Source: Oleispira antarctica RB-8
GTDB taxonomy: Bacteria > Pseudomonadota > Gammaproteobacteria > Pseudomonadales > Oceanobacteraceae
NCBI GenBank assembly: GCA_000967895.1
Contig: FO203512.1
Span: forward strand, 2,255,350 to 2,319,349
Direction: 5' to 3'
Length of the DNA: 64,000 bases
Shown in pieces: positions 15,267-61,298 of this stretch (position 1 is its first letter; the number at the start of each line of letters is the position of its first letter). The notes below the pieces were generated by a model. That model searched no databases, had not been told where the DNA came from, and saw only the letters and a list, made by a program, of their open reading frames with translations. Both the position numbers and the translations under genes were made by a program.

Positions 15267-15686
15267 TTATTCCGCGCTAACGTGACGAGTAGTAATACTG
15301 AGGTTTACAAAACCCGTTTGTCCTGCGGCATCCATTGCACGCACAACTGCTTGGTGGGGAGTATTAGCGTCGGCCGTTATCGTAACTGGCAAGCCCTTTT
15401 CTCCATTCGCAGCCTTAACTAAACCACGCTTTAAGGTATCTAGCTGATTATTAATCAAGGTTTTATCATTGATCGAATAACTACCCGAAGCCGTGATAAT
15501 AATTTCTAATCGATTAGTCGCTACCGGCTGCTGCTCTGCGCTCGCTTCTGGCAAATCTATGCTTAAATGATTTTCCTTAGTAAAGGTCGTCGAGACCATA
15601 AAAAAAATCAGCAGCAAGAATACGACGTCAATCAAAGGTGTAAGATTAACTTCCACCATTTCTTTATTTTGACGTTTGAAATTCAC
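15267..15686 (-). CDS. ExbD/TolR-family biopolymer transport protein
   Basis: 139 residues with one N-terminal transmembrane helix containing the proton-carrying Asp20 (NLTPLIDVVFLLLIFF) and a periplasmic domain. With the ExbB-like protein upstream it forms a proton-driven motor. Linkage to comEC, msbA and lpxK is conserved in pseudomonads, but what the motor drives there is not established. It ends three bases before msbA. Confidence 0.93.
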   Translation of the reverse strand: MNFKRQNKEMVEVNLTPLIDVVFLLLIFFMVSTTFTKENHLSIDLPEASAEQQPVATNRLEIIITASGSYSINDKTLINNQLDTLKRGLVKAANGEKGLPVTITADANTPHQAVVRAMDAAGQTGFVNLSITTRHVSAE

Positions 15687-15688
15687 AG

Positions 15689-16336: not shown

Positions 16337-16442
16337 AGGTAAATCTCCTAACAACATGAACTTATTATGATTTATGGGCGCTACTTTAGCACAAGCTTGA
16401 TCTACAGCTCTATACTCAGATGCAATGAATGCGTGGATCAAA

Positions 16443-44690: not shown

Positions 44691-44717
44691 AAAAAAAAGC
44701 CACCCGAAGGTGGCTTT
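44691..44717 (-). terminator. Terminator of the Agl/Glt-like cluster
   Basis: On the minus strand: AAAGCCACC, a TTCG loop, GGTGGCTTT and then a T-run of eight in all. The C(UUCG)G tetraloop makes this a textbook strong terminator 25 bases after the last gene. Confidence 0.93.
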
Positions 44718-44741
44718 CTAAACGCATAATGCAGATATTGA

Positions 44742-45719
44742 TTATGGAATGAAGCGAATGGGAAACTCAACCACCTTCACATCAATATCACCTTTGTCTT
44801 CGAAGGAAATCATGCGGCATCGGGACGCTAAGCGTCTTTTCAACTTCGCATCCTTCAACTCACTCTCAATCACAGTACAACTTGAAACCTTACCATTAGG
44901 CTGAATCTCAAGCTTTAAAGTGACACTGCCTTCCAAGGCTGCATTTTTACGTAACGCTTTGCGATACAATACATCAAAAGATGCCTTGTGCTGTTCGAAA
45001 ACCAGACGCAGTGATTCTTGACTACGACCCCGCCCAGAATTTTCAATCTGCACCTCTTCACTGCTCAGTTCAACAGCCGTCACATCGCGAGCAGATAGAT
45101 TTTCACCCATTGTTTCGGTAGTTAATGCGGTATCACTGATACCACCAGATCCACGACTTGCAGCACTACGATCAATAACAGAGCCAGTATCCGTCGCTTT
45201 ATTACCTTTATTCGAAAGGCCTTTGCTTGATGTATCAAGCGCAGTAATGGCAGCAGAACCTGGGATACCTTTCAAAGCTTCCATCGCACCAAAACCAAAC
45301 GCTTCTTTTGCTTTTTCTTTGGCTTTAGCCCGTTTTTCTTTAGGTACTTCTTTTTTAGGCTTTGGCTTAGGCTTAGGCTTAGGTTTAGGTTTAGGTTTAG
45401 GTTTAGGTTTAGGTTTAGGTTTAGGTTTTGGCTTCTCCTCAACCTTTTTAGGTTCAGGCTTTTTTTCTTCCTTCTTTTCAATCGGCTTTGGTTTAGGCTT
45501 TGGTTTCGGCTTTTCAAGTTTTTTACGTTTGATAACCTTTGCAACAGCAGCAGGAACCTTCTCTAATTCCTTACGCTCAATCTCAGGCAAAGTAATTTTA
45601 GGCACAAAAAAACCGACGACTAAAACAATACTTAAAAAGATAACTAAAATTAAACGAAAGCTTTTCTGATCAGCATCATTCCAAGGCAGTTCAGGAGGAC
45701 GCACTATCGATGTTGCCAT
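44742..45719 (-). CDS. TonB-like energy transducer with AgmX/PglI-type C-terminal domain
   Basis: 325 residues. A short cytosolic N-terminus precedes one transmembrane helix (LILVIFLSIVLVVGFFVP, about 23-40). Residues about 68-128 are a Lys-Pro/Glu spacer with a run of some 14 KP pairs. A Ser/Thr-rich linker and the C-terminal domain follow (SLRLVFEQHKASFDVLYRKAL, LEGSVTLKLEIQPNGKVSSC, FPIRFIP), as in myxobacterial AgmX/GltJ and TonB-like proteins. It would span the periplasm, coupling the ExbB/ExbD motor upstream to partners further out. Last gene of the cluster. Confidence 0.85.
   Translation of the reverse strand: MATSIVRPPELPWNDADQKSFRLILVIFLSIVLVVGFFVPKITLPEIERKELEKVPAAVAKVIKRKKLEKPKPKPKPKPIEKKEEKKPEPKKVEEKPKPKPKPKPKPKPKPKPKPKPKPKPKKEVPKEKRAKAKEKAKEAFGFGAMEALKGIPGSAAITALDTSSKGLSNKGNKATDTGSVIDRSAASRGSGGISDTALTTETMGENLSARDVTAVELSSEEVQIENSGRGRSQESLRLVFEQHKASFDVLYRKALRKNAALEGSVTLKLEIQPNGKVSSCTVIESELKDAKLKRRLASRCRMISFEDKGDIDVKVVEFPIRFIP
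45358..45435. repeat. Hexanucleotide microsatellite encoding the Lys-Pro spacer
   Basis: Thirteen consecutive hexamers of the type GGYTTN on the plus strand, including seven exact GGTTTA units (45382-45423) and three GGCTTA units. Each encodes one Lys-Pro pair on the minus strand. Copy-number changes would alter spacer length without a frameshift. Confidence 0.95.
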
Positions 45720-45721
45720 GA

Positions 45722-46219
45722 TTAGCTAGCCTCCCCTTTCTGACTCACTGCAAGGGAAATATTATTAAACTCCGCTTTCGCACACGTCTCCATAATCCGC
45801 TTGAGTACCGAATAAGGCGTATCTTTATCACCCATAATGGTAATTGGACGGCCTTCTTCTTTTAACTCAAACGGTAATGGGGAACGAGTCGCCAAATAAT
45901 CCAGCTCTTTTTTCAAGGCCGGAATAATTTCACCTTCTATTTTTGCAATATCGCCCATTTTGGCAATCGGACGACCCTGAACTAACAAATCATCTTTAGT
46001 GACTAATATACGAACCGTGTCTTTTAGTTCATTGGCAGCAATCGATTTTGGTAACTGAATGGCATCATTACTTTGAATTTCAGAATCATTTTGATTCATC
46101 ATCAAAAAGAATACCAAGATAGTAAAAATATCCATCAAAGCCGTTAAGTTTAAAACTGATTTTGCGGCGTTACGCTTGTGATTGCGCTGCATTCGTTTAG
46201 CGCGTCTTGACATTTTCAT
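45722..46219 (-). CDS. ExbD/TolR-family protein with intact proton-carrying Asp
   Basis: 165 residues. A very basic N-terminus is followed by one membrane helix with Asp30 (NLTALMDIFTILVFFLMM), the residue that carries protons in ExbD/TolR/AglS proteins, and a periplasmic domain. The start overlaps the preceding ExbD-like gene by four bases (ATGA), and it ends two bases before the TonB-like gene. Confidence 0.9.
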   Translation of the reverse strand: MKMSRRAKRMQRNHKRNAAKSVLNLTALMDIFTILVFFLMMNQNDSEIQSNDAIQLPKSIAANELKDTVRILVTKDDLLVQGRPIAKMGDIAKIEGEIIPALKKELDYLATRSPLPFELKEEGRPITIMGDKDTPYSVLKRIMETCAKAEFNNISLAVSQKGEAS

Positions 46220-46734
46220 GGCTGAACCTCCCGCGAGGCTTGCTCAATCACAAGGGCATCCCCTAAAGAAACTTCAGGAAATAAAACAGCATCAACTAAA
46301 GATGCGGCGACCACTGTTTCAAAAGTACGAGCTGTATCCATAATGGCGACCAACGTTTGATAATCAATCTCTGGCGTTGGCAATAAAACCACATCGTTTT
46401 TATCAGGAAAGCCTTTTTTAACTTTCTGTAAAACTTCAGATAACTTTTTATGATCTTGTTTTGTTTCGACGACCGGAATATCTCCAATTACACGAGATGC
46501 TCCCCCAGCGGCAACAACAACTTGCATTCCAGTTTTTCTAATAGTGACTTCAACTGATACATCTTCAGGATTTACATTCCCGACAGAATCCCCTAATGGC
46601 AATTTAAGATCAAGTACGGCCGTCTGCGCAAATACCATATTTAATAGCAGCACAGGAACCAAAATGATCATTAAATTCATGAAGGAAGTAATATCGAGAT
46701 CTGCCTCTGATTTCATTCTCTTATGGCGTCTCAT
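46216..46734 (-). CDS. Second ExbD/TolR-family protein, Asn in place of the channel Asp
   Basis: 172 residues with the ExbD layout: basic N-terminus, one helix (DITSFMNLMIILVPVLLL) and a periplasmic domain rich in Val. Aligned with the other ExbD copies, the position of the proton-binding Asp holds Asn20. It may therefore be a structural partner in a heteromeric stator, as with paired TolR-like proteins in myxobacterial AglRQS. It is 13 bases after the ExbB gene. Confidence 0.88.
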   Translation of the reverse strand: MRRHKRMKSEADLDITSFMNLMIILVPVLLLNMVFAQTAVLDLKLPLGDSVGNVNPEDVSVEVTIRKTGMQVVVAAGGASRVIGDIPVVETKQDHKKLSEVLQKVKKGFPDKNDVVLLPTPEIDYQTLVAIMDTARTFETVVAASLVDAVLFPEVSLGDALVIEQASREVQP

Positions 46735-46747
46735 TACAACGTCTCCA

Positions 46748-47389
46748 TTAACCTTCTTTGGTAGGGGTCGGCTTACGCTCAGTTACGATATTTAAAAACT
46801 TAACACCGGCCATCTCAATACTGTCAACAATTTCATTGGTTTTAGCTTGTAAAAAAGCATGACTCAGTAATAAAGGAATTGCGGCCATTAGACCAAATGC
46901 GGTGGTATTCATTGCTACAGAGATAGACTGAGATAGCAGTGTTGCTTTTTCGGCAGGTGCCGCATGAGCAACGGCGGTAAATGCAGCAATAAGACCCATA
47001 ATGGTACCCAATAATCCCATCAAGGTTGCGATATTGGCTAAAGTTGCAACATACTGCGTACGCTTTTCCAATTGAGGAATCGCTTCCATAACACCCTCTT
47101 CCATCGCTAGCTCGATATCTTCACGTCGGCCAGAAGGAATACGATTGATGCCTGCGGCAAAAATAATCGATATTTTAGCGACTGAAGCATTGGTATAATT
47201 TAATGCTGCGCGAAAATCACGCTTCTGCAACATGGGTAAAACATCTTCAAATGCCTGACGATTTGACGACTTTTCGCGCGTTAGAAAGATGAAGCGCTCA
47301 AGCGTCACTGCAAGACCAACGGCTAAAATAATTGCAATTGGGTACATAAAAGTGCCGCCTTCTTGAAAGAAGCGAATGATGGTATCCAT
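46748..47389 (-). CDS. ExbB/TolQ/AglR-family motor protein
   Basis: 213 residues from the ATG at 47389 (GGGGA upstream); the frame upstream to 47452 is unlikely to be used. Three helices are visible: TFMYPIAIILAVGLAVTLERFI, then IATLMGLLGTIMGLIAAF, and ISVAMNTTAFGLMAAIPLLL. It lies 130 bases after the small secreted protein gene, so an extra internal promoter is possible, though I see no convincing one. Confidence 0.9.
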   Translation of the reverse strand: MDTIIRFFQEGGTFMYPIAIILAVGLAVTLERFIFLTREKSSNRQAFEDVLPMLQKRDFRAALNYTNASVAKISIIFAAGINRIPSGRREDIELAMEEGVMEAIPQLEKRTQYVATLANIATLMGLLGTIMGLIAAFTAVAHAAPAEKATLLSQSISVAMNTTAFGLMAAIPLLLSHAFLQAKTNEIVDSIEMAGVKFLNIVTERKPTPTKEG

Positions 47390-47519
47390 TTGGTAATCCC
47401 CTATTTTTTTAGTTTTAGTTTTAAATATTTCATCGATGCGATCTTTTATCACACCGGAAATGAGGTATTAGAATGTTAACAAACATACTAATATAAAAGT
47501 TTGAATCAATAATGCTATT

Positions 47520-47810
47520 TTATTTATTTTTATTATCTAGCGATGAAAAGTTATATTCATTCTGAAAATAATTCAAATACTTAACTTCTCTTTTCATAAT
47601 CTGGCGACTAATAGGTTTTAGCCATTGTTTACGATAACTATTAACAGGAGCGAATAGTCGCCCTGCCCCAGGCGCAGGTTGCCAAGGCGTTACATACAAC
47701 ACACTAGGCTCTTCACTATTACCTTGAATAGAAATACCATCAAGTCGAATAACATCACCCGCAAACGCAGTAAATGGCAAAATAAGCAGAATAATCATAA
47801 TAATTTTCAT
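47520..47810 (-). CDS. Small secreted protein of the Agl/Glt-like cluster
   Basis: 96 residues with a clear signal peptide (MKIIMIILLILPFTAFA). The mature part is basic and includes VLYVTPWQPAPGAGR. I do not recognise a family. The start overlaps the preceding TPR lipoprotein stop (TAATG), so it belongs to the operon. Confidence 0.7.
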   Translation of the reverse strand: MKIIMIILLILPFTAFAGDVIRLDGISIQGNSEEPSVLYVTPWQPAPGAGRLFAPVNSYRKQWLKPISRQIMKREVKYLNYFQNEYNFSSLDNKNK

Positions 47811-48496
47811 TATTCTTCTCCCGCTAATTGCGGCGTAGAGTTGTTAGTTTCCGCTGACTTTTCAATATTGCCCGTCGGTTTTTGTTGATCTTCAGTCGGC
47901 ACTCTACGCTTCAAATCAACAACCCAAGATTTTACCGTTTCATCTTGCTGATCACCCTGAGCAACTAAATATCGCTGATAGTATGAGAGTGCGTTTACAT
48001 TATCATGCAAATACAAATCTGATAGCACTCCTAGATTATACAAGGTCATCACATCATTAGGATTGCATTCTAAAGCCGCTAGATACTGCTCTTTAGCACG
48101 TTTAAATTTCCCCAACTCCCGTAATACAATGCCTTTAAATGAAACGGCTTGGCAAAATTTTTCATCCTGCTGCAGAGCGGTATCGATGCTTACGAGAGCC
48201 TCCTCAAACTTTTCTTGCTTACTTTGGACGATGGCCAAATTAGACCAAGGTCCAGCAAAGTCTGGAAATCTTAATGTAATATCAAGCAGTAACTTTTCTG
48301 CATCCAAAAACTTCTCATCCTGCATTAGTACGAGTGCATCACCAAAATCTTGCTGCAATGCCAATGGAACCGGGCCTAATACGTCAACTTTAAGATCAAT
48401 AACTTCTGGTTTTGGAGTAAACACACTACAACCACTTAAGCTAACCACTGTGGCTAAAAAGCTTAGACGCACAACTTTAGCGAATAGCGTCAACAT
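47810..48496 (-). CDS. TPR lipoprotein of the Agl/Glt-like cluster
   Basis: 228 residues. The signal peptide ends in a lipobox (VSLSGC, Cys near 23), so the mature protein is membrane-anchored by lipid. Three to four tetratricopeptide repeats follow (FAGPWSNLAIVQSKQEKFEEALVS-like motifs at about 80-175). The ATG at 48496 lies inside the previous gene and follows AGGTGA. TPRs usually scaffold multi-protein complexes. Confidence 0.85.
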   Translation of the reverse strand: MLTLFAKVVRLSFLATVVSLSGCSVFTPKPEVIDLKVDVLGPVPLALQQDFGDALVLMQDEKFLDAEKLLLDITLRFPDFAGPWSNLAIVQSKQEKFEEALVSIDTALQQDEKFCQAVSFKGIVLRELGKFKRAKEQYLAALECNPNDVMTLYNLGVLSDLYLHDNVNALSYYQRYLVAQGDQQDETVKSWVVDLKRRVPTEDQQKPTGNIEKSAETNNSTPQLAGEE

Positions 48497-51302
48497 AACT
48501 CACCTGTTTTTCATATTTTGCATATTGAGCGGGCATCAACTCAGCTAAAGAACCATAACTTTTTTTCACCCATTGATCATACAATCCATCAAAGGTGCGA
48601 CCTGCATTTTTTTGATGAACTTCGATCGCTGCCTCTTCTAAAGGAAAGGCCTGATCTTCAAGTAAATAACCATACTCTTCAAGCGCTAACTCATCTAACC
48701 CAGCGGGGCGTTCTGAAGCCAATAAGCCACTGCCAAACTGCGAGTACAGTTCAGCAATTCGAAAAGTAGCTGAAGTCGTAAATTCGAGCACACCTATTTG
48801 TACTGCTTGTGTATATCGTTCCATAGCGGCTTTCATTCGCTTATTTTTTCTATTAATACTTTTATCTAGTGGCAGCGTAATTTTTACTTTCTCAAACTTT
48901 ATGCGTTCATTTTCAGCGAGTTCATACGCAGATTTAGCGGCTAAGTACTTTGATCGATCTGTTCTGTCTTCCCTTGCACCAAGATGCAACCAAACTATTT
49001 TATTCATCCAAAATAATCTTTTAGTATCATCCCCTTGCGCTAAATAAATAACATCCAGCTTATGATGCGCTTCAATAGCGGGATTAAAAGGTCTTTTGTA
49101 ATCATGAGCATAACGCTTGTACATAACCAACGCATTATCTAAGTCTTTGGCTTTTTCAAAATACTCCGCTGATTGAAATAAAGCGATTCGCGACTGCTCT
49201 TTATTACCACCTTGCTGCCATATTTTTTGTAACTCAAACGCGGCACTACGCCAGTTCTCTTGGCTTTCATAAGCGACGATCAACTTTGAAGGAATATCTT
49301 TCACCAAACGGTGATTTGGATAGGCCTTCCTAAAATCTAACAATACGGGTACGGCTTGCTCATATTTCTCAGCCGCCATTAATAATGTGGCCGCATCAAA
49401 CTCTGCACTGACTTTAATATCACTTTCAGGGACTAGCTTAGCAATACGAAGCCAATTTTTAACTGCTAATTCATTATCGCCCGAAGCCTTAGCCATTTCG
49501 CCTTGTTTATAAATAGAGGCGGCTAATTTTTCACGTAAATCATTGCGCGATTTCGATTTAATTTTGTCATAACTAAGAGCTTCTTTAATAGCCTGCTCTG
49601 CTTCCACAAACTGCTCTAAATAAAAGCTTGAATGACTTCTTACCAAGGATGCTCCATAACGGTGACGAGCAGACAAATTACCTTCAGATTCCCAAGCAAG
49701 GTTTGCCGTCACCAAGGCTTGCTCGTAATATTGACCGGCCAATAGCATCTCAGCAGTATTCACCAATACCTGTCCTCGACGCTCATCTTTCGGGAATTCC
49801 TGAACAAAACGCATCGCACTGGCGACCGTTAACTGTCGCCAAATAAGTTTATCCGCTTTTTTAGGCTTGTGTTTGCTGTACGTTAAAATAGCAGCATAAC
49901 CAGATTCAGCCGCTTTCTCGTAGTCAGGGTATTGGTAAGCCACGATTTCGTAGTGATCTTTAGCTAATGGATACTGCTTTGTTTGATAGGCCACTTCTGC
50001 CAATAAAAAATGCGCCTTCGCGGTATCTTCAGCATCAGGGAAACTTCGAATGTATTCACCATACCAGCCAATCGCTTCTTGCAGACGCTCTTTCTTTTCT
50101 TTGCCATTTTTAATCCGCTGACCCCAAGCATGATTAAAACGAGCAAGGTCCCAAATATAAGTTGATAGTGCTGGCTTTATCGTTTCTTGAACCGCTAGAG
50201 TATGATTTTCCCAGTACTCACCACCGACCCCAAACGTTTCGACAAATATTTTTTTATGCTTACGCAATAACGTGGGGTAACGTGCTTTTGTATAGCCTTC
50301 AACAACACGCTGGTAAAATACAGGGGACAGCACATCTTGAGGATAACGATTAATAAAAGCCCTTAACGTTGACGCGCCACTTTTATAATATTTTTTATTA
50401 TAGTACTGGCTGGCTAACGTTTCATAAATTCGATGTTCATAATGACGGCGGCCAATACCTGCATAAAACTGGTTTATGTTTTCCCAATCCCCTTGATAAT
50501 CAAAAGTAATTGCCATAATGCGCAAAATATCTTTTAACATACTTTGCTGACCAATTGAGGCTAAAGTAATAGTTTCTTCGGTAGGAAATTCAAAATCTAA
50601 AACAGAAGTAAAAGACAACAATGATTCATCATAACGGTTCTGTTTAAATTGAGACCAACCCACCAAATACATCGCATTTAGATAATATTTATTACCTTCA
50701 GAGCCACGTATTATTAAGCGTTGGTAGGAACTTTCAGCTAAATCATAAACACCATTTGCATAATAGATATCCCCCAATCGAAAAAGAGATTCTAGGTAAT
50801 AGTCAGAACGCGGATATAATTCTGTTAATTGCTCAAGGACTCGAATAGTTTCAAAAGGCTCGCCTGCTAATGAATAAGCTTTTGCAAGTTGATACAAGGC
50901 TAGATCGTTATCGTTTCGATCTGGATATTTCGCTAATAATTTTTCATAATCAGCAATAGATTCTCGACCTGCATCCAACTCAAAAACTTTAGCGCTGGCT
51001 TCATCAGATTGATCACCTCCCTCCAAAATAAATTCATCTTTTTGCAATCGCAAATTGGCAATTCTATGATGGGTCCTTATTCTTAGTTCTTCATCCGTCG
51101 AAACTTCTAAATAAGCTCGGTACTTCTCCATCACCTCATCATGATCAATGTCTATATTTTCATTGCCCATTAAGCGAAGAGCAGCCGGTGATAAGTTACC
51201 CAGTGTTTGCTGGCTCAACTGCTCTTGTTCAGTAAGAGGCTCTAATACGCTACAACCTGATAATAACGCGATGGTCAAAACAGCACATAATAACTTTTTC
51301 AT
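48477..51302 (-). CDS. Large TPR-rich lipoprotein of the Agl/Glt-like cluster
   Basis: 941 residues. Lipobox LLSGC (Cys near 17) after a short signal peptide. Most of the length is tandem TPR-like helical repeats, e.g. DYEKLLAKYPDRNDNDLALY, ALVMYKRYAHDYKRPFNPA. The architecture resembles AglT/GltE- and AgmU-type scaffolds of the myxobacterial gliding machine, but I cannot assign orthology. It starts at the stop of the upstream TPR gene (TAATG) and overlaps the next by 20 bases. Confidence 0.82.
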   Translation of the reverse strand: MKKLLCAVLTIALLSGCSVLEPLTEQEQLSQQTLGNLSPAALRLMGNENIDIDHDEVMEKYRAYLEVSTDEELRIRTHHRIANLRLQKDEFILEGGDQSDEASAKVFELDAGRESIADYEKLLAKYPDRNDNDLALYQLAKAYSLAGEPFETIRVLEQLTELYPRSDYYLESLFRLGDIYYANGVYDLAESSYQRLIIRGSEGNKYYLNAMYLVGWSQFKQNRYDESLLSFTSVLDFEFPTEETITLASIGQQSMLKDILRIMAITFDYQGDWENINQFYAGIGRRHYEHRIYETLASQYYNKKYYKSGASTLRAFINRYPQDVLSPVFYQRVVEGYTKARYPTLLRKHKKIFVETFGVGGEYWENHTLAVQETIKPALSTYIWDLARFNHAWGQRIKNGKEKKERLQEAIGWYGEYIRSFPDAEDTAKAHFLLAEVAYQTKQYPLAKDHYEIVAYQYPDYEKAAESGYAAILTYSKHKPKKADKLIWRQLTVASAMRFVQEFPKDERRGQVLVNTAEMLLAGQYYEQALVTANLAWESEGNLSARHRYGASLVRSHSSFYLEQFVEAEQAIKEALSYDKIKSKSRNDLREKLAASIYKQGEMAKASGDNELAVKNWLRIAKLVPESDIKVSAEFDAATLLMAAEKYEQAVPVLLDFRKAYPNHRLVKDIPSKLIVAYESQENWRSAAFELQKIWQQGGNKEQSRIALFQSAEYFEKAKDLDNALVMYKRYAHDYKRPFNPAIEAHHKLDVIYLAQGDDTKRLFWMNKIVWLHLGAREDRTDRSKYLAAKSAYELAENERIKFEKVKITLPLDKSINRKNKRMKAAMERYTQAVQIGVLEFTTSATFRIAELYSQFGSGLLASERPAGLDELALEEYGYLLEDQAFPLEEAAIEVHQKNAGRTFDGLYDQWVKKSYGSLAELMPAQYAKYEKQVSYVDAIR

Positions 51303-53173
51303 TATTGCTGTTCCTCTTCACTCAACTCACCAAAAGCAACGTGACGCTGTAGTGCTTCATCGTATAACCGGGCTATCGATAAACGTGATTGAGACAGGTA
51401 GTCATTTATCCGGTCAATCTGGGCATTTAAATATTGCGTTGAACTGACGAGTAAAGCCGCTTTACTTTCTGTTTTAGCGTCTTCTGCTGATGCTTTTAAG
51501 GCATTAACGTTTGCCAGAACCATCAATATTTTATCTTTCATTCCTACCCAAGCAGAAGGAGACCATTTATGCGCAAGGCGCGTTTCAAGTAACATCGTAT
51601 CCGCTGTTCTTATCAATCGCTCCATAGCACCCAACTGTTTTTTAAGGCCCCACTGTTTATGCACTTTTTGTGCACTCATTTGCCATAAAAAAACACCCTT
51701 AACCCGGTTCCAGCGTTGCTGATACATCTCTACATTACGACTGGCCTTATTAATAAGATTAAGCCTTTCAATTCCTTTTGCTGAGCGTGCTAACAAATTT
51801 ATGTTCTTAGCTTCGTGATCATTCGGTAAGGCAAGCAGATCATTATTTGATTGATTAAGCTGATCTTGCATTTGCTTTAGCTCATTCTTTACTGTGCTCA
51901 GTTGCACACTAGATTGCTCTAACATGGCCGACGCGTTCAGCGCCTTAAACGTTTGCTCTCGTTTACTTACCAGCGTTAGCCATAATTTCAAACTGTTTTC
52001 TTTTTCATTTAAATAATTGGTTAACAGCAATAAATCACGATATTCAGTCATTTGATTCACCAATTTATTATTGGTGACTAATTGCTGTAAGACCGCGGCA
52101 GTATCGTTTAAAGGTAATGTTGTTTCAATATTTGCCTGCCAACCCCAGCCTTGATCATCTTGCTTATAAATCCAATCTTCAAGCCAGGGGTTATCAACCA
52201 AACCTTCATTCATTTGAATGAGTAAAGACTTCATGGACAGCAACCGTTTTTCTGTCTCTTCATACACATTTAACGCCTGAGTACTGGCATACATAAGTTC
52301 CAATACATGAGGAACACCCAGCATAGATTCCATTACTTCAGGGTTGAATTGATTAAATCGAACCTGTAATTCCCGCCAAGGCTGTAATGCAGCTTCATAC
52401 TGACCTTGCTCAACTTTTGCCCAACCATATTGCAAAAGCGCAACAGGCGTATAGGGACCAGCAAGACTAATACGTTTTAAATGCTTTTCAGCAGAGCGAT
52501 ATTTACCCGTTTGTAAAAAGTGCAACGCAGAAATTAGATGTATTCGATCGCGTAAGTCATGACCTTCTTGAGTTTCTGGTAGATAAAAAGTCGCATCTTC
52601 CATGAGTAGCGCTGTACTTTGTCCGCTATTATTCCCATTAAACATCGATAAGATAAGATTATGTCGAGCGAATCCCGTCCAAATACTGCTTCGCGGCATG
52701 TCACTAATCATGGTAAGTGCTTTCTTATGCTCTCCAAACTCGATCAATGACGCTGCTTTCATGAATTGAGCTTCCGCTACTGTTTCTAATGTTAACTGAG
52801 CGAAATCGATATTTTTAATACTGTAAAGTGCTGACTCATATTGCCCCAACTCAAACCAGCGACGCGCTAAGAAAAACCATGTTTGAGAGGAAACCGTACG
52901 GCCTGTTTTCTGTATCTCAGTAAAAATTGATTGCGCCTGTTCGTGCAAACCTAATGACAGTAACATGGCAGCTTCCATGACATCTGCCTCGTCAGCAATA
53001 GCACCTTCTTTGGAACGTAATAGCTTCAGCTGATTCATCGCACTGGGAAAATCACCCGTGAGATAATGATAATAATATTCACCTTTTTGAAGGCGCAATA
53101 TTTCCTGCTCATTGCTTTGAGCATAAGAAAAAGTCGCGCTAAATAATAAAAAAGCTATCAACAATAATTTCAT
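51302..53173 (-). CDS. Secreted TPR/coiled-coil protein of the Agl/Glt-like cluster
   Basis: 623 residues with a Sec signal peptide (LLLIAFLLFSATFSYA). TPR-like repeats fill residues 25-290, followed by a long alpha-helical part (about 400-600) with coiled-coil character (ELKQMQDQLNQSNNDLLALP). No lipobox, so periplasmic. It is four bases downstream of the small secreted protein gene and coupled to the large lipoprotein. Confidence 0.8.
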   Translation of the reverse strand: MKLLLIAFLLFSATFSYAQSNEQEILRLQKGEYYYHYLTGDFPSAMNQLKLLRSKEGAIADEADVMEAAMLLSLGLHEQAQSIFTEIQKTGRTVSSQTWFFLARRWFELGQYESALYSIKNIDFAQLTLETVAEAQFMKAASLIEFGEHKKALTMISDMPRSSIWTGFARHNLILSMFNGNNSGQSTALLMEDATFYLPETQEGHDLRDRIHLISALHFLQTGKYRSAEKHLKRISLAGPYTPVALLQYGWAKVEQGQYEAALQPWRELQVRFNQFNPEVMESMLGVPHVLELMYASTQALNVYEETEKRLLSMKSLLIQMNEGLVDNPWLEDWIYKQDDQGWGWQANIETTLPLNDTAAVLQQLVTNNKLVNQMTEYRDLLLLTNYLNEKENSLKLWLTLVSKREQTFKALNASAMLEQSSVQLSTVKNELKQMQDQLNQSNNDLLALPNDHEAKNINLLARSAKGIERLNLINKASRNVEMYQQRWNRVKGVFLWQMSAQKVHKQWGLKKQLGAMERLIRTADTMLLETRLAHKWSPSAWVGMKDKILMVLANVNALKASAEDAKTESKAALLVSSTQYLNAQIDRINDYLSQSRLSIARLYDEALQRHVAFGELSEEEQQ

Positions 53174-53177
53174 ATAT

Positions 53178-53726
53178 TTACCACTGACTAATCAGCAGTT
53201 CTGCATTTTGCATTTCTTTATTATCTTGTACTTTCAATTCGATATACAAAGGCTGATCAAGTTTTTCTATTTTTGCCTCTATAACAAGTTCACGATTTTT
53301 CCCATACTTGTCCACGCCTTTAGCAATGGCTTTAATCGCATGTAAACCAGGCCCTAAATTAAGGTTACTTAGAGGCTGCACTGCGCCTTCCCGTAATGCA
53401 CTTATTTGGCGCTTAGTATATAAATATTGGATCGGCTGCTTGTCATCGACCGTTATATTAATTGAATAAGGCTCGAAAAATTCGCCGTATGCCAGCGAGA
53501 AAAACACAGCGGCCCGGGTTGTTGCAGGACTCAGCAATTCTTCTTCCAGCTGATATAAATCTCTATTTAGATCCAATACCGATTGTTTAATCGCCGTTGC
53601 CTTAATACTCAACTGACTTGCTTGCGCCGATGCTTTTTGTGCATTCATCACATCGGCTTCTTGTACAGGTTGTGCGACGCTGGTCATTGATATTAAAGAT
53701 AACAATACTAAATAGGTAAAACGCAT
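53178..53726 (-). CDS. Small periplasmic protein of the Agl/Glt-like cluster
   Basis: The ATG at 53726 gives 182 residues with a signal peptide (FTYLVLLSLISMTSVA). A helical stretch precedes a beta-rich domain (YSINITVDDKQPIQYLYT, LYIELKVQDNKEMQNAEL). No recognised family. An upstream ATG at 53753 overlaps the thioredoxin-fold gene. Confidence 0.72.
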   Translation of the reverse strand: MRFTYLVLLSLISMTSVAQPVQEADVMNAQKASAQASQLSIKATAIKQSVLDLNRDLYQLEEELLSPATTRAAVFFSLAYGEFFEPYSINITVDDKQPIQYLYTKRQISALREGAVQPLSNLNLGPGLHAIKAIAKGVDKYGKNRELVIEAKIEKLDQPLYIELKVQDNKEMQNAELLISQW

Positions 53727-53740
53727 TTTTTGTAACCTTC

Positions 53741-54229
53741 TTACTGAAACCATTCTTTGTTATTAAGCCAAAGCTTTAATTCGTTTGATACTTCAAGCTT
53801 GCGATCATTGACACTGTCCGTAACGAGGTAATCTAAAACGCCATCCGGTGAAATAAACATCACGGCCGGAGCAGATTTAAACCACCAAGCTTCTGAATTC
53901 GAAGCCTGATATTCCAATACGGGCAAACGTGACCATGGTGCGGTGTAATCAGTTTGTTTACGCCATAAAAACCACGTCTGAAGCCCTTCTACCGCCAAGC
54001 TTTCTGCGAGGTACTGTAAATCGATCAATGTTTCTTCGCATTGGTCGCATGCATCCAACCAAACGAGCATCACGGGCTTACCAATTTGTTCAGATAGACG
54101 CTGCGGTGCCCCATTACTACTGGGCATGACAAAATCCGGAACATGGTCGCCAACCTCTAATGCTTCCGCAAACGGAAAGATGCAAACAATCATTAAAAAT
54201 ATTTTATAAATAGGGTTAAGTATTCGCAT
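53741..54229 (-). CDS. TlpA-like secreted thioredoxin-fold protein
   Basis: 162 residues: signal peptide (FLMIVCIFPFAEA), then the redoxin start VGDHVPDFVMPSSNGAPQRL, the CxxC active site as DACDQCEE near residue 58-61, and the cis-Pro loop SAPAVMFISPDGVL. It is likely a periplasmic thiol oxidoreductase. First gene of the ten-gene cluster; a thiol role for the downstream proteins is not obvious because they have few Cys. Confidence 0.83.
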   Translation of the reverse strand: MRILNPIYKIFLMIVCIFPFAEALEVGDHVPDFVMPSSNGAPQRLSEQIGKPVMLVWLDACDQCEETLIDLQYLAESLAVEGLQTWFLWRKQTDYTAPWSRLPVLEYQASNSEAWWFKSAPAVMFISPDGVLDYLVTDSVNDRKLEVSNELKLWLNNKEWFQ

Positions 54230-54283: not shown

Positions 54284-54592
54284 TTAGAATGCAGCATAAT
54301 TTTTATGATTAGATAACTGCCAATTCATAGCAACCGCAGTAACATCATCCGAAGTTAAGTCGATCACCTTCTCGATGTGACTTAAGACAAGATCACGTTT
54401 CAGTACACTATAACCTGCTCCTATCGACCAATCTATGGCTGATTCAGTCGCTTTTGGCGTTATTTGCCATTCATTAAGGTCACAATCAGCCGCAGAGTAG
54501 CATTTCCCACAAATAAGATAACTGGCCCAAATGCCGACTTTACCACTGCTATCTTGCTCAGTTGGTAAACTGTGACCCAGTTCTATTCTCAT
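54284..54592 (-). CDS. Unknown small protein
   Basis: The ATG at 54592 gives 102 residues beginning MRIELGHSLPTEQDSSGKVG; a longer frame starts at 54625. It has no signal peptide and contains three Cys (CGKCYSAADC). I do not recognise it. It lies 54 bases upstream of the TlpA-like gene on the same strand and might share its transcript. Confidence 0.5.
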   Translation of the reverse strand: MRIELGHSLPTEQDSSGKVGIWASYLICGKCYSAADCDLNEWQITPKATESAIDWSIGAGYSVLKRDLVLSHIEKVIDLTSDDVTAVAMNWQLSNHKNYAAF

Positions 54593-54926
54593 ATCATTGA
54601 TTTCCAAATAAATAAGAGTAAGCATTACAAGAAGGAATCGAGGGCACGGGGCTAACTTTAGAGTTTTTTATAATAGAAAATGAATTAATAGCGAACTTCA
54701 CACGTAGAAATGGCGTCGTCAACCGTTCTTGCACGACAAGAAATAGGGAGGGAATGATATTATTTAGAACAGACAACCCTAGCGTCATACTCCACACGGG
54801 TTGAAATTTTAAGCTTCGCATTTTGCGCTAGCCTTTATTTTAATTATATTTATTAGTTATATTATCATCCTTAATAATTGGTATTAGTTTACCTGTCAAA
54901 GCAAATAATTCCAGTTCTTTTGCCTT

Positions 54927-54976: not shown

Positions 54977-56158
54977 TTACTGACTCATTTTTTTCATAGC
55001 TTTCTCAAGTCCTTCTAAAGTCAGAGGATACATTTCATCTTCCACAATCTGCTTAATTGCGCCCAATGATCCTCCATTACCCCAGTGACTCTCAGGTGCT
55101 GGATTAATCCATACCACCTTATCAAACTTGTCTTTCACTCGCTGCAGCCAAACAGCTCCTGCTTCATCATTCCAATGCTCAACACTGCCGCCCGTATGCG
55201 TCACTTCATAAGGTGCCATCATCGCATCACCAATAAAGATAACTTTATAATCACGGCCAAATTTATTCAGCAAATCCCAAGTCATTGTCTGTTCATTGGT
55301 ACGACGAATATTATTTTTCCAAACTGACTCATATAAGCAGTTATGAAAATAAAACGTTTCCATGTGCTTAAACTCAGTTCTAGCCGCAGAGAATAGCTCT
55401 TCACAGACTTTGACATGAGGGTCCATCGAACCACCGATATCAAAAAACAATAATACTTTCACCGCATTATGACGTTCAGGCACCAGCTTTAAATCTAAAT
55501 AACCAGCATTTCTTGCGGTACTTGCAATCGTATCGTCTAGATCTAAGGTATCAGCCGCGCCGGTGCGAGCAAACTTGCGCAAACGGCGTAAAGCAACTTT
55601 GATATTACGAATACCGAGTTGAATTGAATCATCTAGGTCGCGATAATTACGTTTTTCCCAAACCTTAACCGCCTTCTTATGTCGAGACTGCCCCTGCTCA
55701 ATACGAAAACCTTCAGGATTAAAACCATTAGCACCAAAAGGTGATGTCCCCCCCGTACCAATATTTTTATTACCACCCTGATGACGTTTCTTCTGATTTT
55801 CCAGACGCTCTTTGAAGGCCTTAATAATTTCGTCTAGGCCACCCAAGTCTTTAATCTTATCCATTTCCTCTTGAGTCATGATGCGTTCCATCTCTTTACG
55901 CATCCAATCATCAGGAATACTAGGATCATCCATCGCAAGATCTAAGTTATCAATGCCTTCGAAATAATGAGCGAATGCTTTATCAAACTTATCGTAATGG
56001 CGCTCATCTTTAACCAGACACAGCTTCGCCAACGCATAAAAATCATCTAGGTCCGCAAACGATAAATGACCTTCTAGCGCGGCGACTAAATCCAAATATT
56101 CACCGACGGAACAAGGCACTTTCGCCTTGCGTACCGTCATAAAAAAATCAATAAGCAT
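54977..56158 (-). CDS. VWA-domain protein of the CoxE-like family
   Basis: 393 residues, cytosolic (no signal or helix). A helical N-terminus is followed by a basic middle with Gly-rich linker (GGTSPFGANGFNPEG) and a C-terminal von Willebrand A domain. Its metal site reads FFDIGGSMD, with Gly for the first Ser, as is usual in this family. A perfect AGGAGG lies before the ATG. It is coupled to a MoxR ATPase 23 bases upstream; such pairs act as metal-insertion or assembly chaperones, with the client unknown. Confidence 0.9.
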   Translation of the reverse strand: MLIDFFMTVRKAKVPCSVGEYLDLVAALEGHLSFADLDDFYALAKLCLVKDERHYDKFDKAFAHYFEGIDNLDLAMDDPSIPDDWMRKEMERIMTQEEMDKIKDLGGLDEIIKAFKERLENQKKRHQGGNKNIGTGGTSPFGANGFNPEGFRIEQGQSRHKKAVKVWEKRNYRDLDDSIQLGIRNIKVALRRLRKFARTGAADTLDLDDTIASTARNAGYLDLKLVPERHNAVKVLLFFDIGGSMDPHVKVCEELFSAARTEFKHMETFYFHNCLYESVWKNNIRRTNEQTMTWDLLNKFGRDYKVIFIGDAMMAPYEVTHTGGSVEHWNDEAGAVWLQRVKDKFDKVVWINPAPESHWGNGGSLGAIKQIVEDEMYPLTLEGLEKAMKKMSQ

Positions 56159-56181
56159 AACTACCTCCTAAGCCTGAGCGC

Positions 56182-57024
56182 TTAACCGCGGCGACGGCTC
56201 ATGAAGGCCAATTTTTCTAACAACATAACGTCTTGCTCATTTTTTACCAAAGCACCAGCCATGGGCGGAATGGCTTTTGTTCTATCAGTATCACGCAAAA
56301 GATCAACGCCGATCTCGTCAGCCATCAATAACTTAAGCCAATCGATCAATTCAGACGTGGATGGCTTTTTCTTCAAACCAGGAACTTTACGAACATCAAA
56401 GAATACTTCCATTGCTTCTTTTACAAGAGACGCTTGGATGTTTGGATAATGAACATCAACGATCTTCATCATGGTTTCTTTAGAAGGGAAATCGATATAG
56501 TGGAAAAAACAACGACGTAAGAAAGCATCAGGTAATTCTTTCTCGTTATTACTAGTGATCAAAATAATAGGACGATGCTTAGCCACAATACGCTGTTGTG
56601 TTTCGTAGCAATAGAACTCCATTTTATCGAGTTCTAATAACAAATCATTTGGAAATTCGATATCGGCTTTATCGATTTCGTCAATCAATAATACAACGGG
56701 CTTATCGGCATCAAAGGCTTCCCAAAGCTTTCCCTTAACAATGTAGTTCTTGATGTCATGAACTTTATCGTTGCCGAGTTGAGAATCACGCAAACGGGAT
56801 ACAGCATCATATTCGTATAAGCCTTGATGCGCTTTTGTTGTACTTTTAATGTGCCACTGGATTAGTTCAGTACCTAAAGATTCTGCTAACTGCTCCGCAA
56901 GCATAGTTTTACCGGTGCCAGGCTCTCCTTTTAATAATAATGGACGCTGCAGAGTAATGGATGCATTAACAGCCATCTGTAACTCAGGCGTTGCAACATA
57001 TTCACTAGTACCTTGGAACTTCAT
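56182..57024 (-). CDS. MoxR-family AAA+ ATPase
   Basis: 280 residues from the ATG at 57024 (GAGG seven bases before), giving the usual start MKFQGTSEYVATPELQ. Walker A is KGEPGTGKTMLAEQLAE, Walker B VVLLIDEIDKAD, sensor ITSNNEKELPDAFLRRC. It works with the downstream VWA protein. Confidence 0.94.
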   Translation of the reverse strand: MKFQGTSEYVATPELQMAVNASITLQRPLLLKGEPGTGKTMLAEQLAESLGTELIQWHIKSTTKAHQGLYEYDAVSRLRDSQLGNDKVHDIKNYIVKGKLWEAFDADKPVVLLIDEIDKADIEFPNDLLLELDKMEFYCYETQQRIVAKHRPIILITSNNEKELPDAFLRRCFFHYIDFPSKETMMKIVDVHYPNIQASLVKEAMEVFFDVRKVPGLKKKPSTSELIDWLKLLMADEIGVDLLRDTDRTKAIPPMAGALVKNEQDVMLLEKLAFMSRRRG

Positions 57025-57116
57025 AATAGCCTCACACTGAAAAATCGAATACATAAAATTTGCCGCAGTATATAGCGACGATAGCCCTTGCAGCAAGACT
57101 CTTAATTCTGCTAGCT

Positions 57117-58955
57117 CTACTGACTGGCCAACCGTAATAACAAATCACTACCCAATAAAGGTTTCGCTAAAAAGTAGCCTTGCAGACGATCACAACCGAG
57201 CGCTTCCAGCTTTAATTGAGTCGCCCTATCTTCAACCCCTTCAGCGACCACTTCGACGCCCAGTCCTTTGCACATGGCAATAATCGTTTCGACAATCACC
57301 TGATCTTCATGGCTATAACAAAGCTCTTGAATAAATGAACGATCAATCTTCAGCTCTGAAACCGGCATTTTTTTCAGATAAGCCAGTGACGAGAATCCGG
57401 TTCCAAAATCATCCAAAGCAATACGAATACCCAGTGCGGTCAAGCAGCGCAAAAAATCCAATGAACGCCTAGGCTTTTTCAACAAGACTGTTTCTGTGAC
57501 TTCTAAAATAAGCTGCCCTGCAGGAATATCATAAAGCTCAAGCTGCTGAGCAATATCTTGTAGTAAATTATTTTGCCAAAGGTTGAGTGTTGAAAGATTG
57601 ATCGAAAGAGTTATTTCAAAACCCGCAGTTAAGACCTTCTGATATTGTGAGAAAGCATGGCTTATTACCCAATGTGTCAATGGCTGAATGAGGCCAGTTT
57701 GTTCCGCCAATGCGACTATTTCATCAGCAGGTAAAGGACCATAAATAGGATGATTCCAGCGCAGTAATACCTCAACACCTAAGATTTTACCGCTCCGACA
57801 ATCAAACTGAGGCTGGTAATGTAAAAACAAGCCTTGATCACAGGCGATTGCGTTGCGCAAATCCGCGACTAGCGTGAGTTTTTTCTGACTGTATCGGTCT
57901 GCTTTCTCGCTATACCCAGCCCAAGGCTGTTTTTCTTGCTCTGCAAACTCCAACGCGACATGCGCTCGTCGCATCCATGACGTCACATCATCGTCGACCA
58001 ACGTCGATGCAAAACCCACGGAAATAGGGGTCTCGATCTGCATCCCTTGATAATGTAACGGCTGGCTAGAGTCTGTAAGCAACTGCTCAATAATTTCCTC
58101 CAGTCGATATGCCTGAGTATCTTTTAAAGCGATCGTAAAGTGCGTTCTATCCAGCAGAGCAACCGGACCTGCCTGATCATAAAGGCCGTATTGAAGGGGT
58201 ATTATTTCAACATAACGCTGACACAGAGCTGAAAAGCGCAAGGCCATTTCAACCAGTATTTCATCTGCACGAGAATGGCCTAGCGTATTATTGATTTCAT
58301 TGAATTGATGCAAGTGGAAAATGGCTAAGGTCTTATTTTCATACAGATCACGATTATTATCTGTAAAAAAACCTTCTAAAACCTTGTGTAAAAAAATACG
58401 ATTGGGTAAGCGTGAATGATATTCATGATGCGCCTGAAAATGTAATTCCTGCTCCACCTGATTACGCTGTAATATTTCGGACTGAAGCGCCTTTACACTT
58501 AACTGCAAGCGATGATCGAAAAACCGCTCTCGATTAGCAGCATCATAATTAGAATTGGATAATTGCATTAAGTTGTTAATACTGACCGCCACCTGAGCGG
58601 TTACAAAAGGCGTCCGAATATAATCATTAGCGCCTTTCTCTAGCGCTCGATCAACCCCTTCGCACTGCTTTCCACCACTGATAATAATGGGGACTAAATA
58701 GCCCTGCGGCTGCAAACGCAACCATTCAACGATTGATTCTGCCGAGCCACAAGGAACATCAAAATCTAAAACAAGTAGATCGGGGAGAAAAGAGAGAAAA
58801 TGAGATTTGAAATCGTGATAGTCAACCAAGCTACAAACCTGCTCAATGGCCAAGGAGCTTAGAATTCTAGAAAGTAGATTTCTATTAGTGTCCTGACCAT
58901 CAACAACAAGTACCTTTGCTGACTGTGTTCGTAATAGGGATGATAATGGCAACAT
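57117..58955 (-). CDS. Receiver - degenerate GGDEF - EAL protein (probable cyclic di-GMP phosphodiesterase)
   Basis: 612 residues, cytosolic. The receiver (about 13-130) has the phospho-acceptor in LLVLDFDVP, but the second acid of the pocket is Gly (VVDGQD) and the usual Lys is Thr (DYIRTPF). The GGDEF domain (about 180-340) has LDRTHF where GGDEF should be, so no cyclase activity is expected. The EAL domain (about 360-610) keeps catalytic residues: EVLLRW, NLS, EVTET, DDFGTGFSSL, LKIDRSF, EGVED and QGYFLAKP. It could modulate the PilZ-containing hydrolase elsewhere in this window. Confidence 0.92.
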   Translation of the reverse strand: MLPLSSLLRTQSAKVLVVDGQDTNRNLLSRILSSLAIEQVCSLVDYHDFKSHFLSFLPDLLVLDFDVPCGSAESIVEWLRLQPQGYLVPIIISGGKQCEGVDRALEKGANDYIRTPFVTAQVAVSINNLMQLSNSNYDAANRERFFDHRLQLSVKALQSEILQRNQVEQELHFQAHHEYHSRLPNRIFLHKVLEGFFTDNNRDLYENKTLAIFHLHQFNEINNTLGHSRADEILVEMALRFSALCQRYVEIIPLQYGLYDQAGPVALLDRTHFTIALKDTQAYRLEEIIEQLLTDSSQPLHYQGMQIETPISVGFASTLVDDDVTSWMRRAHVALEFAEQEKQPWAGYSEKADRYSQKKLTLVADLRNAIACDQGLFLHYQPQFDCRSGKILGVEVLLRWNHPIYGPLPADEIVALAEQTGLIQPLTHWVISHAFSQYQKVLTAGFEITLSINLSTLNLWQNNLLQDIAQQLELYDIPAGQLILEVTETVLLKKPRRSLDFLRCLTALGIRIALDDFGTGFSSLAYLKKMPVSELKIDRSFIQELCYSHEDQVIVETIIAMCKGLGVEVVAEGVEDRATQLKLEALGCDRLQGYFLAKPLLGSDLLLRLASQ

Positions 58956-59030
58956 CGAGAAAATAGACCAAAACTGATTTGCTCAATTCTATGCCATTCA
59001 AGTCACGAAAGACAATCACTACTCCTCTTT

Positions 59031-61298
59031 TTACTTAGTTCCTTCATCACCCTCTTTACTTGCATTTTTATCATTATCAAATTCGCCCCAAGAGTCCTCA
59101 TCCGTATCAACATCATCCGGGTCTATAGAGAAATCTTCATCAAAGCTATCAGTCGCATCACTGCCTTCTGTATCGACTGAGGCAGAAGCCTCCTCAGAAA
59201 ATGATATTTCTTCTTCACCAATTTCATCCAGAGAATCAAAGTCTCCAGCAAAATCATCTTCCAAATCTTCTAGGTCAGCAATCACTCCTTCTGCCTCGAT
59301 ATTGGTTTGAGCATCGACTGCGAGCGTTGATTTACGCAACATAAACCACCATACCCCAGCGCCAATAACAGCAACGTTCAACAAACCAATAAGCAAATAA
59401 ACCCACCAAGCTAAGCCTTCCTCCTCACCAGCCACTTCGCGCTCATTATCCGTAAGTGATTCATCAACAGGTTCTTCTTTGGTGACATCATCGATGTCAA
59501 TTTTTGGAACAATACTCTCTTCCACTGCTTCTTCAGGCTCATCCTCAACGACAGCACTGTCGTCTGCAGCACTTTCATCAATGCTACTATCGGCACTCTC
59601 ATTTAAGTTTTCACTTACAACGTTGCCGTCATTAGATTCAACAGCATCATTATTTTCACCCTCTACTATTTTATCAGCGACTTCAGATTCAGCGTTTTCA
59701 GATGGAATGGGCAGATCAAACACAATACTTTCTGGCTTAACCTTAAAATTCTTACCACTTTGAGTGACACCACGCACATTCAAATCAACGCGATACTGGC
59801 CTGGCCCTTTCGTCTCCTCAATTTCACTAACCCAAGCTTGTGCCTGTTCATCAAAAATAACCGATTGAATGATCGTATTGTCATCAGGGCTTTTTATTTT
59901 TGCAATAACTCGAGAACGTTCGATATCCAGATTATCTGACAACCCTCTCACTTCAATGCGATATACGCCCTTGCTAGTATCGGCACGATGAGTAATTTCA
60001 ACAGGCTGAATCATGGTCATTGAAAAGCTTCGCTTACGCTGAAACGTTCTGCCTTCAGCGACAACATCAACCTGATATTGCCCCATTTCCTTCAAACGAT
60101 ATAAACCTTCCCGATAAATACCATCTGCTGGAGGACTTTCAGGATCCGAAAGTACCTTACTCCCCTCTCGACCACTCGCAGTAACCACCTTCATGGTTAT
60201 ATCGGTTAAACGCAGAATCTCACTACTATCAACGACATCCCCTTCGTTAGTCAGATTAATCTGAACATCGAGCTTATCACCAGGAAATATCGTCGCTGGA
60301 ATGCCTTTTATTCGCAAGGCTAAATCTGAAAGAATAGTGACTCGATTAGAAGGATCTAGATCAGCCTCAGCAATCCACGTTCCGGCCTCAGGCAGCTTGA
60401 TGGTAATTAGATCGAAACTCACATCTTTATGCCAACGAACAGATGCTGGGTGCTTCATTTCAGTCCAGCGCTCACCACCTGGGGTTAATAACGCCGTCTC
60501 TTGAGCCCCGACTGAAGGCTTAAAAATCAACGCAGTAAACTCATTAACGCTGCCATCAATGACAAATGTATTATCTTCCATAGGAACTTGTTCGGCAGGG
60601 ATCGCCTGATCGAAGGCACGCAAAAAAGCCTTCATTAATGCTTCAGCATCTTGCGCTTCAGAATATAACCCGTCGGTTTCTAAAGCGATTTCTTGCAATA
60701 AGTTTTTATCCGCTAAATCGGATAACGCCAAGGTGTGTATATTCGCCCCGGCGACGCGGTATTTACCCAATACCTGCGACATCAATTTTTTACGTTCTTG
60801 AGTATTTATTTGCTCTGCATTGGCCGCCCCAGCCTCCGCCATATCGATTTTACCGTCTGTTAATAAAATAATACTCTGCTGAAAACCACTATCAGCACTA
60901 AGGCCCCAAGCGGCATCATTCAATGCCCCAGACAAATTAGTCTGTAAACCGAATGAAGAAATTTTTAAAGCAGATGTTTTAGCCTGACTACGCCAAACAT
61001 CGTCTACCTTAGCAACAGGCACTAGATTATTGACGTAACGACCAAAGGTCCAAATACCAGCTTGAGCGCCCTCGGGCATTAATTCTAATAACAAATTAAG
61101 CGCTGGAATGCGTAGATCATTGGGATCGGTTTGCTTCATGCTGCCAGAGATATCAACAACGATTCGCACATCGTATGGCAGGGCTTTATTATCACCCTCT
61201 GCTGCTGATGTGGCTGTCGAAACTCCAACCCATAAAATGCTAGATAGTAAAAGGAAGGCGGTAAGCCTTCCCCCCGAAGACATAAGGTCTCTGAACAT
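59031..61298 (-). CDS. Large membrane-anchored VWA protein
   Basis: 755 residues. Signal peptide (LTAFLLLSSILWVGVSTATSA), VWA domain with an intact metal site (VDISGSMK near 50, LTDGKIDM), then about 300 residues of beta-sandwich-like segments, and an acidic Ser/Glu-rich linker. A single transmembrane helix (WWVYLLIGLLNVAVIGAGVWWFML, about 640-663) precedes a strongly acidic cytosolic tail. The VWA part would face the periplasm. It is 26 bases after the winged-helix membrane protein gene. Confidence 0.88.
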   Translation of the reverse strand: MFRDLMSSGGRLTAFLLLSSILWVGVSTATSAAEGDNKALPYDVRIVVDISGSMKQTDPNDLRIPALNLLLELMPEGAQAGIWTFGRYVNNLVPVAKVDDVWRSQAKTSALKISSFGLQTNLSGALNDAAWGLSADSGFQQSIILLTDGKIDMAEAGAANAEQINTQERKKLMSQVLGKYRVAGANIHTLALSDLADKNLLQEIALETDGLYSEAQDAEALMKAFLRAFDQAIPAEQVPMEDNTFVIDGSVNEFTALIFKPSVGAQETALLTPGGERWTEMKHPASVRWHKDVSFDLITIKLPEAGTWIAEADLDPSNRVTILSDLALRIKGIPATIFPGDKLDVQINLTNEGDVVDSSEILRLTDITMKVVTASGREGSKVLSDPESPPADGIYREGLYRLKEMGQYQVDVVAEGRTFQRKRSFSMTMIQPVEITHRADTSKGVYRIEVRGLSDNLDIERSRVIAKIKSPDDNTIIQSVIFDEQAQAWVSEIEETKGPGQYRVDLNVRGVTQSGKNFKVKPESIVFDLPIPSENAESEVADKIVEGENNDAVESNDGNVVSENLNESADSSIDESAADDSAVVEDEPEEAVEESIVPKIDIDDVTKEEPVDESLTDNEREVAGEEEGLAWWVYLLIGLLNVAVIGAGVWWFMLRKSTLAVDAQTNIEAEGVIADLEDLEDDFAGDFDSLDEIGEEEISFSEEASASVDTEGSDATDSFDEDFSIDPDDVDTDEDSWGEFDNDKNASKEGDEGTK

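Follow-up and report, generated by a model that had tools for sequence, protein, structure and literature searches.

A nine-gene core complex of the Agl-Glt/Nfs type, with two unlike ExbD proteins, in Oleispira antarctica RB-8

A run of ten open reading frames (ORFs), all on the minus strand between positions 44742 and 54229 of a 64,000-nucleotide stretch of the Oleispira antarctica RB-8 genome (contig FO203512.1), contains a cluster belonging to the ancestral-type core complex of the Agl-Glt and Nfs machines, which has been described before and lacks the gliding parts. The whole stretch is referred to here as the window, and coordinates are positions in it unless they are marked as genome positions or as positions in a locus (L numbers). 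With moderate confidence, we consider that the cluster encodes a machine driven by the proton-motive force and spanning the cell envelope, whose output is most likely the pulling or moving of outer-membrane or surface cargo, as in coat assembly by Nfs, and not gliding. The gammaproteobacterial 'core complex' (Group B genes) was described by Luciano et al. 2011 (PMC3169522), who gave its function as unknown and noted duplicates per genome, and Wartel et al. 2013 (PMC3858216) viewed it as a possible basal transport machinery. It is a proposed origin from which the gliding and spore-coat machines evolved, and no functional study of it in gammaproteobacteria was found in the literature searched. 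The cluster in the window shares with the complex of 2011 and 2013 the association of seven genes (AglR, two ExbD, GltC, GltD, GltE and GltG) and an extra gene: an AglR-type ExbB and two unlike ExbD proteins lie in one cluster, homologues of GltD, GltE, GltG and (by profile) GltC are clustered with this motor, and in relatives the genes are likewise grouped in one region. It differs from the 2011 description in that P191, a periplasmic protein, and a GltF-like protein are conserved parts here and have myxobacterial homologues. A sequence-only reading of the window had mentioned related gammaproteobacterial clusters; the cluster is the published core complex and is not of a new kind.

In the 5' to 3' direction the ten genes encode a TlpA-like protein, P191, GltC-, GltD-, GltE-, GltF- and AglR-like proteins, ExbD1, ExbD2 and a GltG-like protein, and nearly all of them adjoin or overlap. 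The junctions (in nucleotides, negative values denoting overlap) are -13 for TlpA/P191, 4 for P191/GltC, -1 for GltC/GltD, -20 for GltD/GltE, -1 for GltE/GltF-like, 130 for GltF-like/AglR, 13 for AglR/ExbD1, -4 for ExbD1/ExbD2 and 2 for ExbD2/GltG. The run is followed by an intrinsic terminator (44691-44719, minus strand; AAAGCCACC-TTCG-GGTGGCTTT and a T run; -17.7 kcal/mol, z -5.0), which a simple terminator scan did not pick up. The tightly joined, one-strand run closed by a strong terminator, as well as the protein types, are thus as the sequence-only reading had described them: Pfam gives one MotA_ExbB, two ExbD and tetratricopeptide repeats (TPRs) in three of the ten proteins. The motor comprises the AglR-like ExbB/TolQ-type protein (46748-47389; MotA_ExbB, 1e-26), ExbD1 in the AglQ position (46216-46734; ExbD, 2e-11) and ExbD2 in the AglS position (45722-46219; ExbD, 1e-15). 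For AglR, the ATG start at 47389 is more likely than the GTG at 47452, because the sequences of relatives begin there. The GltG-like protein (44742-45719) is a TonB/TolA-type transducer with one transmembrane helix, a long KP-rich spacer and a TonB-like tail. This tail passes the curated cut-off of NF033768 (AgmX/PglI C-terminal domain) with 57 bits, and 54.5 bits in a second search, and the protein matches NF033760 (GltG/PglI) with an E value of 1e-16, whereas TonB_C gives 20.9 bits where 24.6 are required. No FHA domain was found in it, and none of the ten window proteins matched GltJ (Pfam/NCBIfam in both cases). This protein, which had been called TonB/AgmX-type, thus resembles GltG/PglI and its shared tail and not GltJ/AgmX in particular.

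The other conserved proteins are a secreted GltC-like TPR/coiled-coil protein (51302-53173; TPR in Pfam), a GltD (AgmU)-like TPR lipoprotein of 941 amino acids (48477-51302), a GltE (AglT)-like TPR lipoprotein (47810-48496; NF033758 GltE at E 1e-5, below the cut-off; profile about 86-197 bits to the myxobacterial proteins in the GltE position), a small secreted GltF-like protein and P191. Clear lipoboxes (LLSGC and SLSGC) were read from the sequence in both TPR lipoproteins. The GltF-like protein (47520-47810; 96 amino acids) has a TonB-box-like motif (VIRLDGISIQGNSEEPSVLYVTPW) and is kept in 49 of the 52 loci described below. A Pfam match of this protein to PixA (E 4e-4, at the cut-off) was set aside as probably due to chance, because the GltF match is present. 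P191 (53178-53753), the conserved extra core-complex gene, has an N-terminal coiled-coil-like stretch followed by a domain with invariant F/D/G/H residues; it has no match in Pfam, a profile search of the PDB gave nothing credible, and its structure prediction without an alignment (predicted local distance difference test score 44.5) was not used.

Direct comparison with Myxococcus proteins shows the homology of AglR, the ExbDs, GltC, GltD, GltE and GltG, and confirms the Agl-Glt kinship that had been proposed for the cluster. The findings named beforehand as refuting this proposal were not made, since relatives conserve the gene order and no receptor gene was seen next to the cluster. Myxobacterial genomes were located by a scan for MglA with a query that was confirmed against PDB entries. 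The GltD-like protein is 24% identical over about 620 residues to the Myxococcus GltD-type protein (E 1e-25), and its profile (283 bits) covers nearly the full length. The AglR-like protein shows 39% identity (135 bits) to the Myxococcus AglR-type protein, whereas its scores against the other ExbBs of the same genome are at most 62 bits, except for a second Agl-type set (116 bits). Profiles of GltE, GltG and GltC also find matches in myxobacterial clusters; for GltC, a single-sequence search in myxobacteria gave nothing convincing and the profile alone matched the proteins in the GltC position (E down to 3e-16). Three myxobacterial genomes have a P191 homologue (E 4e-6 to 3e-5) directly before GltC, where it is syntenic, retains the invariant residues and is part of mglA-linked clusters. 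The GltF-like profile matches the F proteins that myxobacteria encode in this position, between GltE and GltG (hhalign P 3e-5, probability 73%). In the earlier work (PMC3169522), however, the extra gene of the core was given as absent from Myxococcales, and gltF as confined to Myxococcales/Bdellovibrionales; that extra gene may or may not be P191, which has a myxobacterial homologue. The results for P191 and the GltF-like protein, of whose homologues in both lineages no report was found in the literature searched, alter which parts count as ancestral.

The mglA-side clusters of myxobacteria show the order P191-GltC-GltD-GltE-F-GltG in L214 and L216 (L210 stops at GltD), and no other myxobacterial copy reaches the GltD profile scores of these three; they differ from the window in that the motor genes lie outside the cluster and the N-terminus of GltG is longer. 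In L214 (1501-3110) mglA is located directly upstream of the core-like cluster. In M. xanthus, gltC lies beside gltA/B and not with gltD-G and aglRQS (PMC3169522), which agrees with the division into modules described below.

To examine conservation, about 60 loci were fetched and annotated with profiles, and 52 of these hold at least seven of the nine core genes. The canonical order is strictly kept in 46 of the 52 loci, two (L049 and L050) depart from it solely by an extra TPR gene, and in four (L052, L067, L070 and L296) the order is circularly permuted, in the same way in each. Due to this, the gene order cannot be ascribed to chance, and the nine genes, all but the TlpA-like one, are a conserved unit. 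The claim of a ten-gene machine thus holds for nine genes, which co-occur with their order kept, and does not hold for the tenth, a secreted TlpA/ResA-like thioredoxin with a CXXC (CDQC) motif (53741-54229; AhpC-TSA, 6e-8), the family of which is present in 16 of the 52 loci and which is an accessory tied to P191 in the type A loci defined below. P191 is present in 49 of the 145 genomes of the host's order, and single-sequence matches to GltC were seen in 17 of the 397 genomes of the phylum sample, the weakest of them probably by chance. The permutation in the four loci falls exactly at the joint between GltD to GltG and TlpA-P191-GltC. In the genome G019 two halves of the cluster lie about 30 kb apart (L057 and L292), and five loci (L058, L072 and L074-L076) hold a motor-less P191-GltC pair beside genes for CXXCH, Tat-signal-like and barrel proteins, a full core being located elsewhere in these genomes (L285-L290). 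In view of these repeated breaks at one joint, the cluster is read as consisting of an engine (GltD-GltG) and a module for the outer membrane (TlpA-P191-GltC), to which barrel and CXXCH proteins are often added. No report of this division was found in the literature searched, and it provides a rational place to seek the cargo.

On the basis of their neighbour genes the loci fall into types A, B and C. In type A, to which the window belongs, the neighbours in the closest relatives are MoxR, VWA, two barrels and TlpA, and in others DUF3570 and ApbE; elsewhere in the class, several families conserve the string CXXCH protein (N5)-barrel-barrel-TlpA-DUF3570-core. Type B loci have a PSD2-like CXXCH protein, a LamG and cytochrome-like protein and a Tat-signal-like protein before P191, and type C loci have barrels and a fibro-slime protein, as well as a PD40/HZS_alpha-like CXXCH protein after GltG. 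CXXCH proteins, belonging to three families, are present beside the core in 20 of the 52 loci and barrels in 17, and the link is therefore frequent but not universal; a haem-protein link at every locus was dropped for this reason. One further ORF, of 545 amino acids, near a core complex in L047 (L047_11) contains 21 CXXCH motifs. A second complete copy of the core, of type C, is present in the same genome at about 2.999-3.008 Mb (L007, genome 2991500-3011000), accompanied by two outer-membrane barrels, by a protein with a fibro-slime domain and by a CXXCH protein of 959 amino acids that contains a long DPT repeat (L007 4531-7410). In the GltD tree, this copy groups with L045, L065, L068, L069, L073 and L079 (100/100), and the window copy with L040, L041 and L046. 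The second copy is anciently diverged from that in the window, and since the genome G066 also has both copy types, the duplication is old and both copies have been retained.

The two ExbD proteins differ at the proton site. At the residue aligned to Asp25 of E. coli ExbD, 51 ExbD1 sequences have Asn and a single one has Ser (a further sequence was unreadable), the window protein reading SFMNLMIIL, whereas ExbD2 has Asp in all 52 (ALMDIFTIL in the window). In Myxococcus both AglQ and AglS carry Asp at this site. The other ExbDs compared have Asp, except in L275 and L279, where again members of ExbD pairs lack it and the partner has Asp; these loci represent a second ExbD pair type with one Asn and one Asp, and the pairing of unlike ExbDs, one of them inactive, may be more widespread. 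A separate ExbB/ExbD pair at 15267-16441 of the window, outside this machine, has an ExbD with the usual Asp. As Asp is kept in every ExbD2, a proton path probably exists. In MotB an Asp-to-Asn change imitates the protonated state (PMC9389320), and by this analogy ExbD1 may be locked in a protonated-like state. We infer that ExbD1 pairs with ExbD2; the pairing of AglQ and AglS is called unknown in the literature (PMC9389320). No report of an ExbD1 without and an ExbD2 with the proton-carrying Asp was found in the literature searched, and the Asn/Asp pair offers a direct test of the number of active axle subunits needed by a 5:2 motor.

Based upon Myxococcus and the Tol/Ton models, in the former of which AglRQS-GltG acts on outer-membrane proteins with TonB boxes (PMC5349195, PMC9389320), AglR would probably form a pentamer around an ExbD1/ExbD2 pair, which would be turned or shifted by proton flow through AglR-ExbD; as the proton-binding Asp is present in ExbD2 only, such a mixed dimer would receive its energy from a single side. 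GltG would be driven by this motor, the KP-rich rod of which may span the periplasm so that force passes through the wall, and the tail of GltG would cyclically grip partners at the outer membrane, for which the GltF-like TonB-box protein and the GltD and GltE lipoproteins are the likeliest candidates. GltC and P191 may serve as an adaptor to surface or outer-membrane cargo (viz., in many relatives, beta-barrels and large CXXCH proteins); the window has apparently lost its dedicated barrels or uses those of the second copy as well. The earlier proposal of a proton-driven link between the two membranes is supported by the homologies and by the Asp of ExbD2, and the list of tasks it had left open is narrowed, motility being the least likely of them. 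Several observations nevertheless count against the reading that we favour. AglR has V/I at the equivalent of Glu176 of E. coli ExbB in the gammaproteobacterial sequences aligned, and given this and the loss of Asp in ExbD1 the complex may work unlike ExbBD; GltG, as read from its sequence, lacks the SHLS/His motif used by TonB and TolA on their motors (PMC12204202); and the cargo is putative, as no more than 20 of the 52 loci have CXXCH neighbours and 17 have barrels, with none intact at the window.

The homology of the motor and of GltC, GltD, GltE and GltG to parts of the gliding machine could be taken to mean that gliding, as in Myxococcus, is also the task here, but we consider this very unlikely. 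MglA was detected in the positive control (G145) but was not found in this genome (G000) or in the relative G066; the locus showed neither an FHA domain nor a gene of the GltI/GltJ type, nor any other gliding-specific gene (GltH/I/K were not searched genome-wide); the outer-membrane barrels are absent or decayed at the window; and the core by itself was considered unlikely to drive gliding by Luciano et al. 2011 (PMC3169522). Further, the GltD tree, which is midpoint-rooted with long branches and is suggestive only, separates the gammaproteobacterial copies, as a single group (100/100), from every myxobacterial copy sampled. The myxobacterial GltD paralogues, labelled here glt-like or nfs-like on the basis of gene order, seem to have diverged from one another inside the myxobacterial lineage. 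In comparison with the Agl-Nfs spore-coat and Agl-Glt gliding machines of M. xanthus, the cluster has the same motor type, TPR lipoproteins, TonB-like GltG/NfsG and small F protein, and it differs in the gliding-specific parts, which were not seen at the window, and in the single Asp of its ExbD pair. An ordinary TonB-ExbB-ExbD nutrient uptake system, which the presence of ExbB, ExbD and TonB-like proteins might suggest, conflicts with both the gene content and the homology and can hardly be entertained: the Glt-type tail of the transducer scores above its cut-off and TonB_C below, no receptor gene is present among the neighbours examined, and AglR is far closer to the Myxococcus AglR-type protein than to the other ExbBs of that genome. 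The 5:2 motor family and the transducer principle are common to the cluster, ExbBD-TonB and TolQRA, from which it is distinguished by its two unlike ExbDs, a GltG without SHLS, and the lack of TolB, Pal or a receptor.

Two other tasks deserve more weight. A device for envelope integrity, similar to Tol-Pal, or for distributing a surface polymer, like Nfs in spore-coat assembly, is a possibility to which we give limited credence: Nfs, which has the same architecture, moves a surface polymer (PMC3858216), and among NCBIfam families and PDB entries the AglR-like protein scores best against TolQ, but TolB and Pal were not found in the cluster with Pfam, and no polysaccharide gene family was recognised among the recurrent neighbours. 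Slightly more doubtful is a device for the secretion or assembly of large periplasmic or surface haem (CXXCH) proteins, the cysteines of which would be kept reduced by TlpA. This accords with the CXXCH families beside the core, with the N5-barrel-barrel-TlpA-DUF3570-core string and with the CXXCH protein of the second copy; however, 32 of the 52 loci, that in the window included, are without such a protein, and haem binding is deduced from motifs alone. A bolder form of this idea, which we offer as speculation and regard as unlikely, is that a trans-envelope motor with an obligatory pair of unlike ExbDs, one of which alone can carry protons, is conserved in numerous gammaproteobacteria and acts as an engine for the movement or assembly of large CXXCH proteins of the surface, to which it would be coupled by an exchangeable adaptor of P191, GltC and barrels.

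With regard to the surroundings of the cluster, barrels occupy the GltB/A position in relatives and are present beside the second copy, whereas the window has a weak remnant only. An ORF at 54284-54625 (minus strand), in the place taken in close relatives by the gene for the second outer-membrane barrel, is 23% identical over 96 amino acids to the barrel of L041 (E 0.005) and may be a decayed barrel remnant; the barrel genes are intact in L040 and L041, and a search of this genome gave no other copy. The MoxR-VWA genes upstream were not counted as parts of the machine, as they are linked to it in the closest relatives only (4 of 42 loci). In the window this region (54977-61298) encodes two VWA proteins, the first of them CoxE-like, together with a MoxR-type AAA protein and a GGDEF-EAL response regulator.

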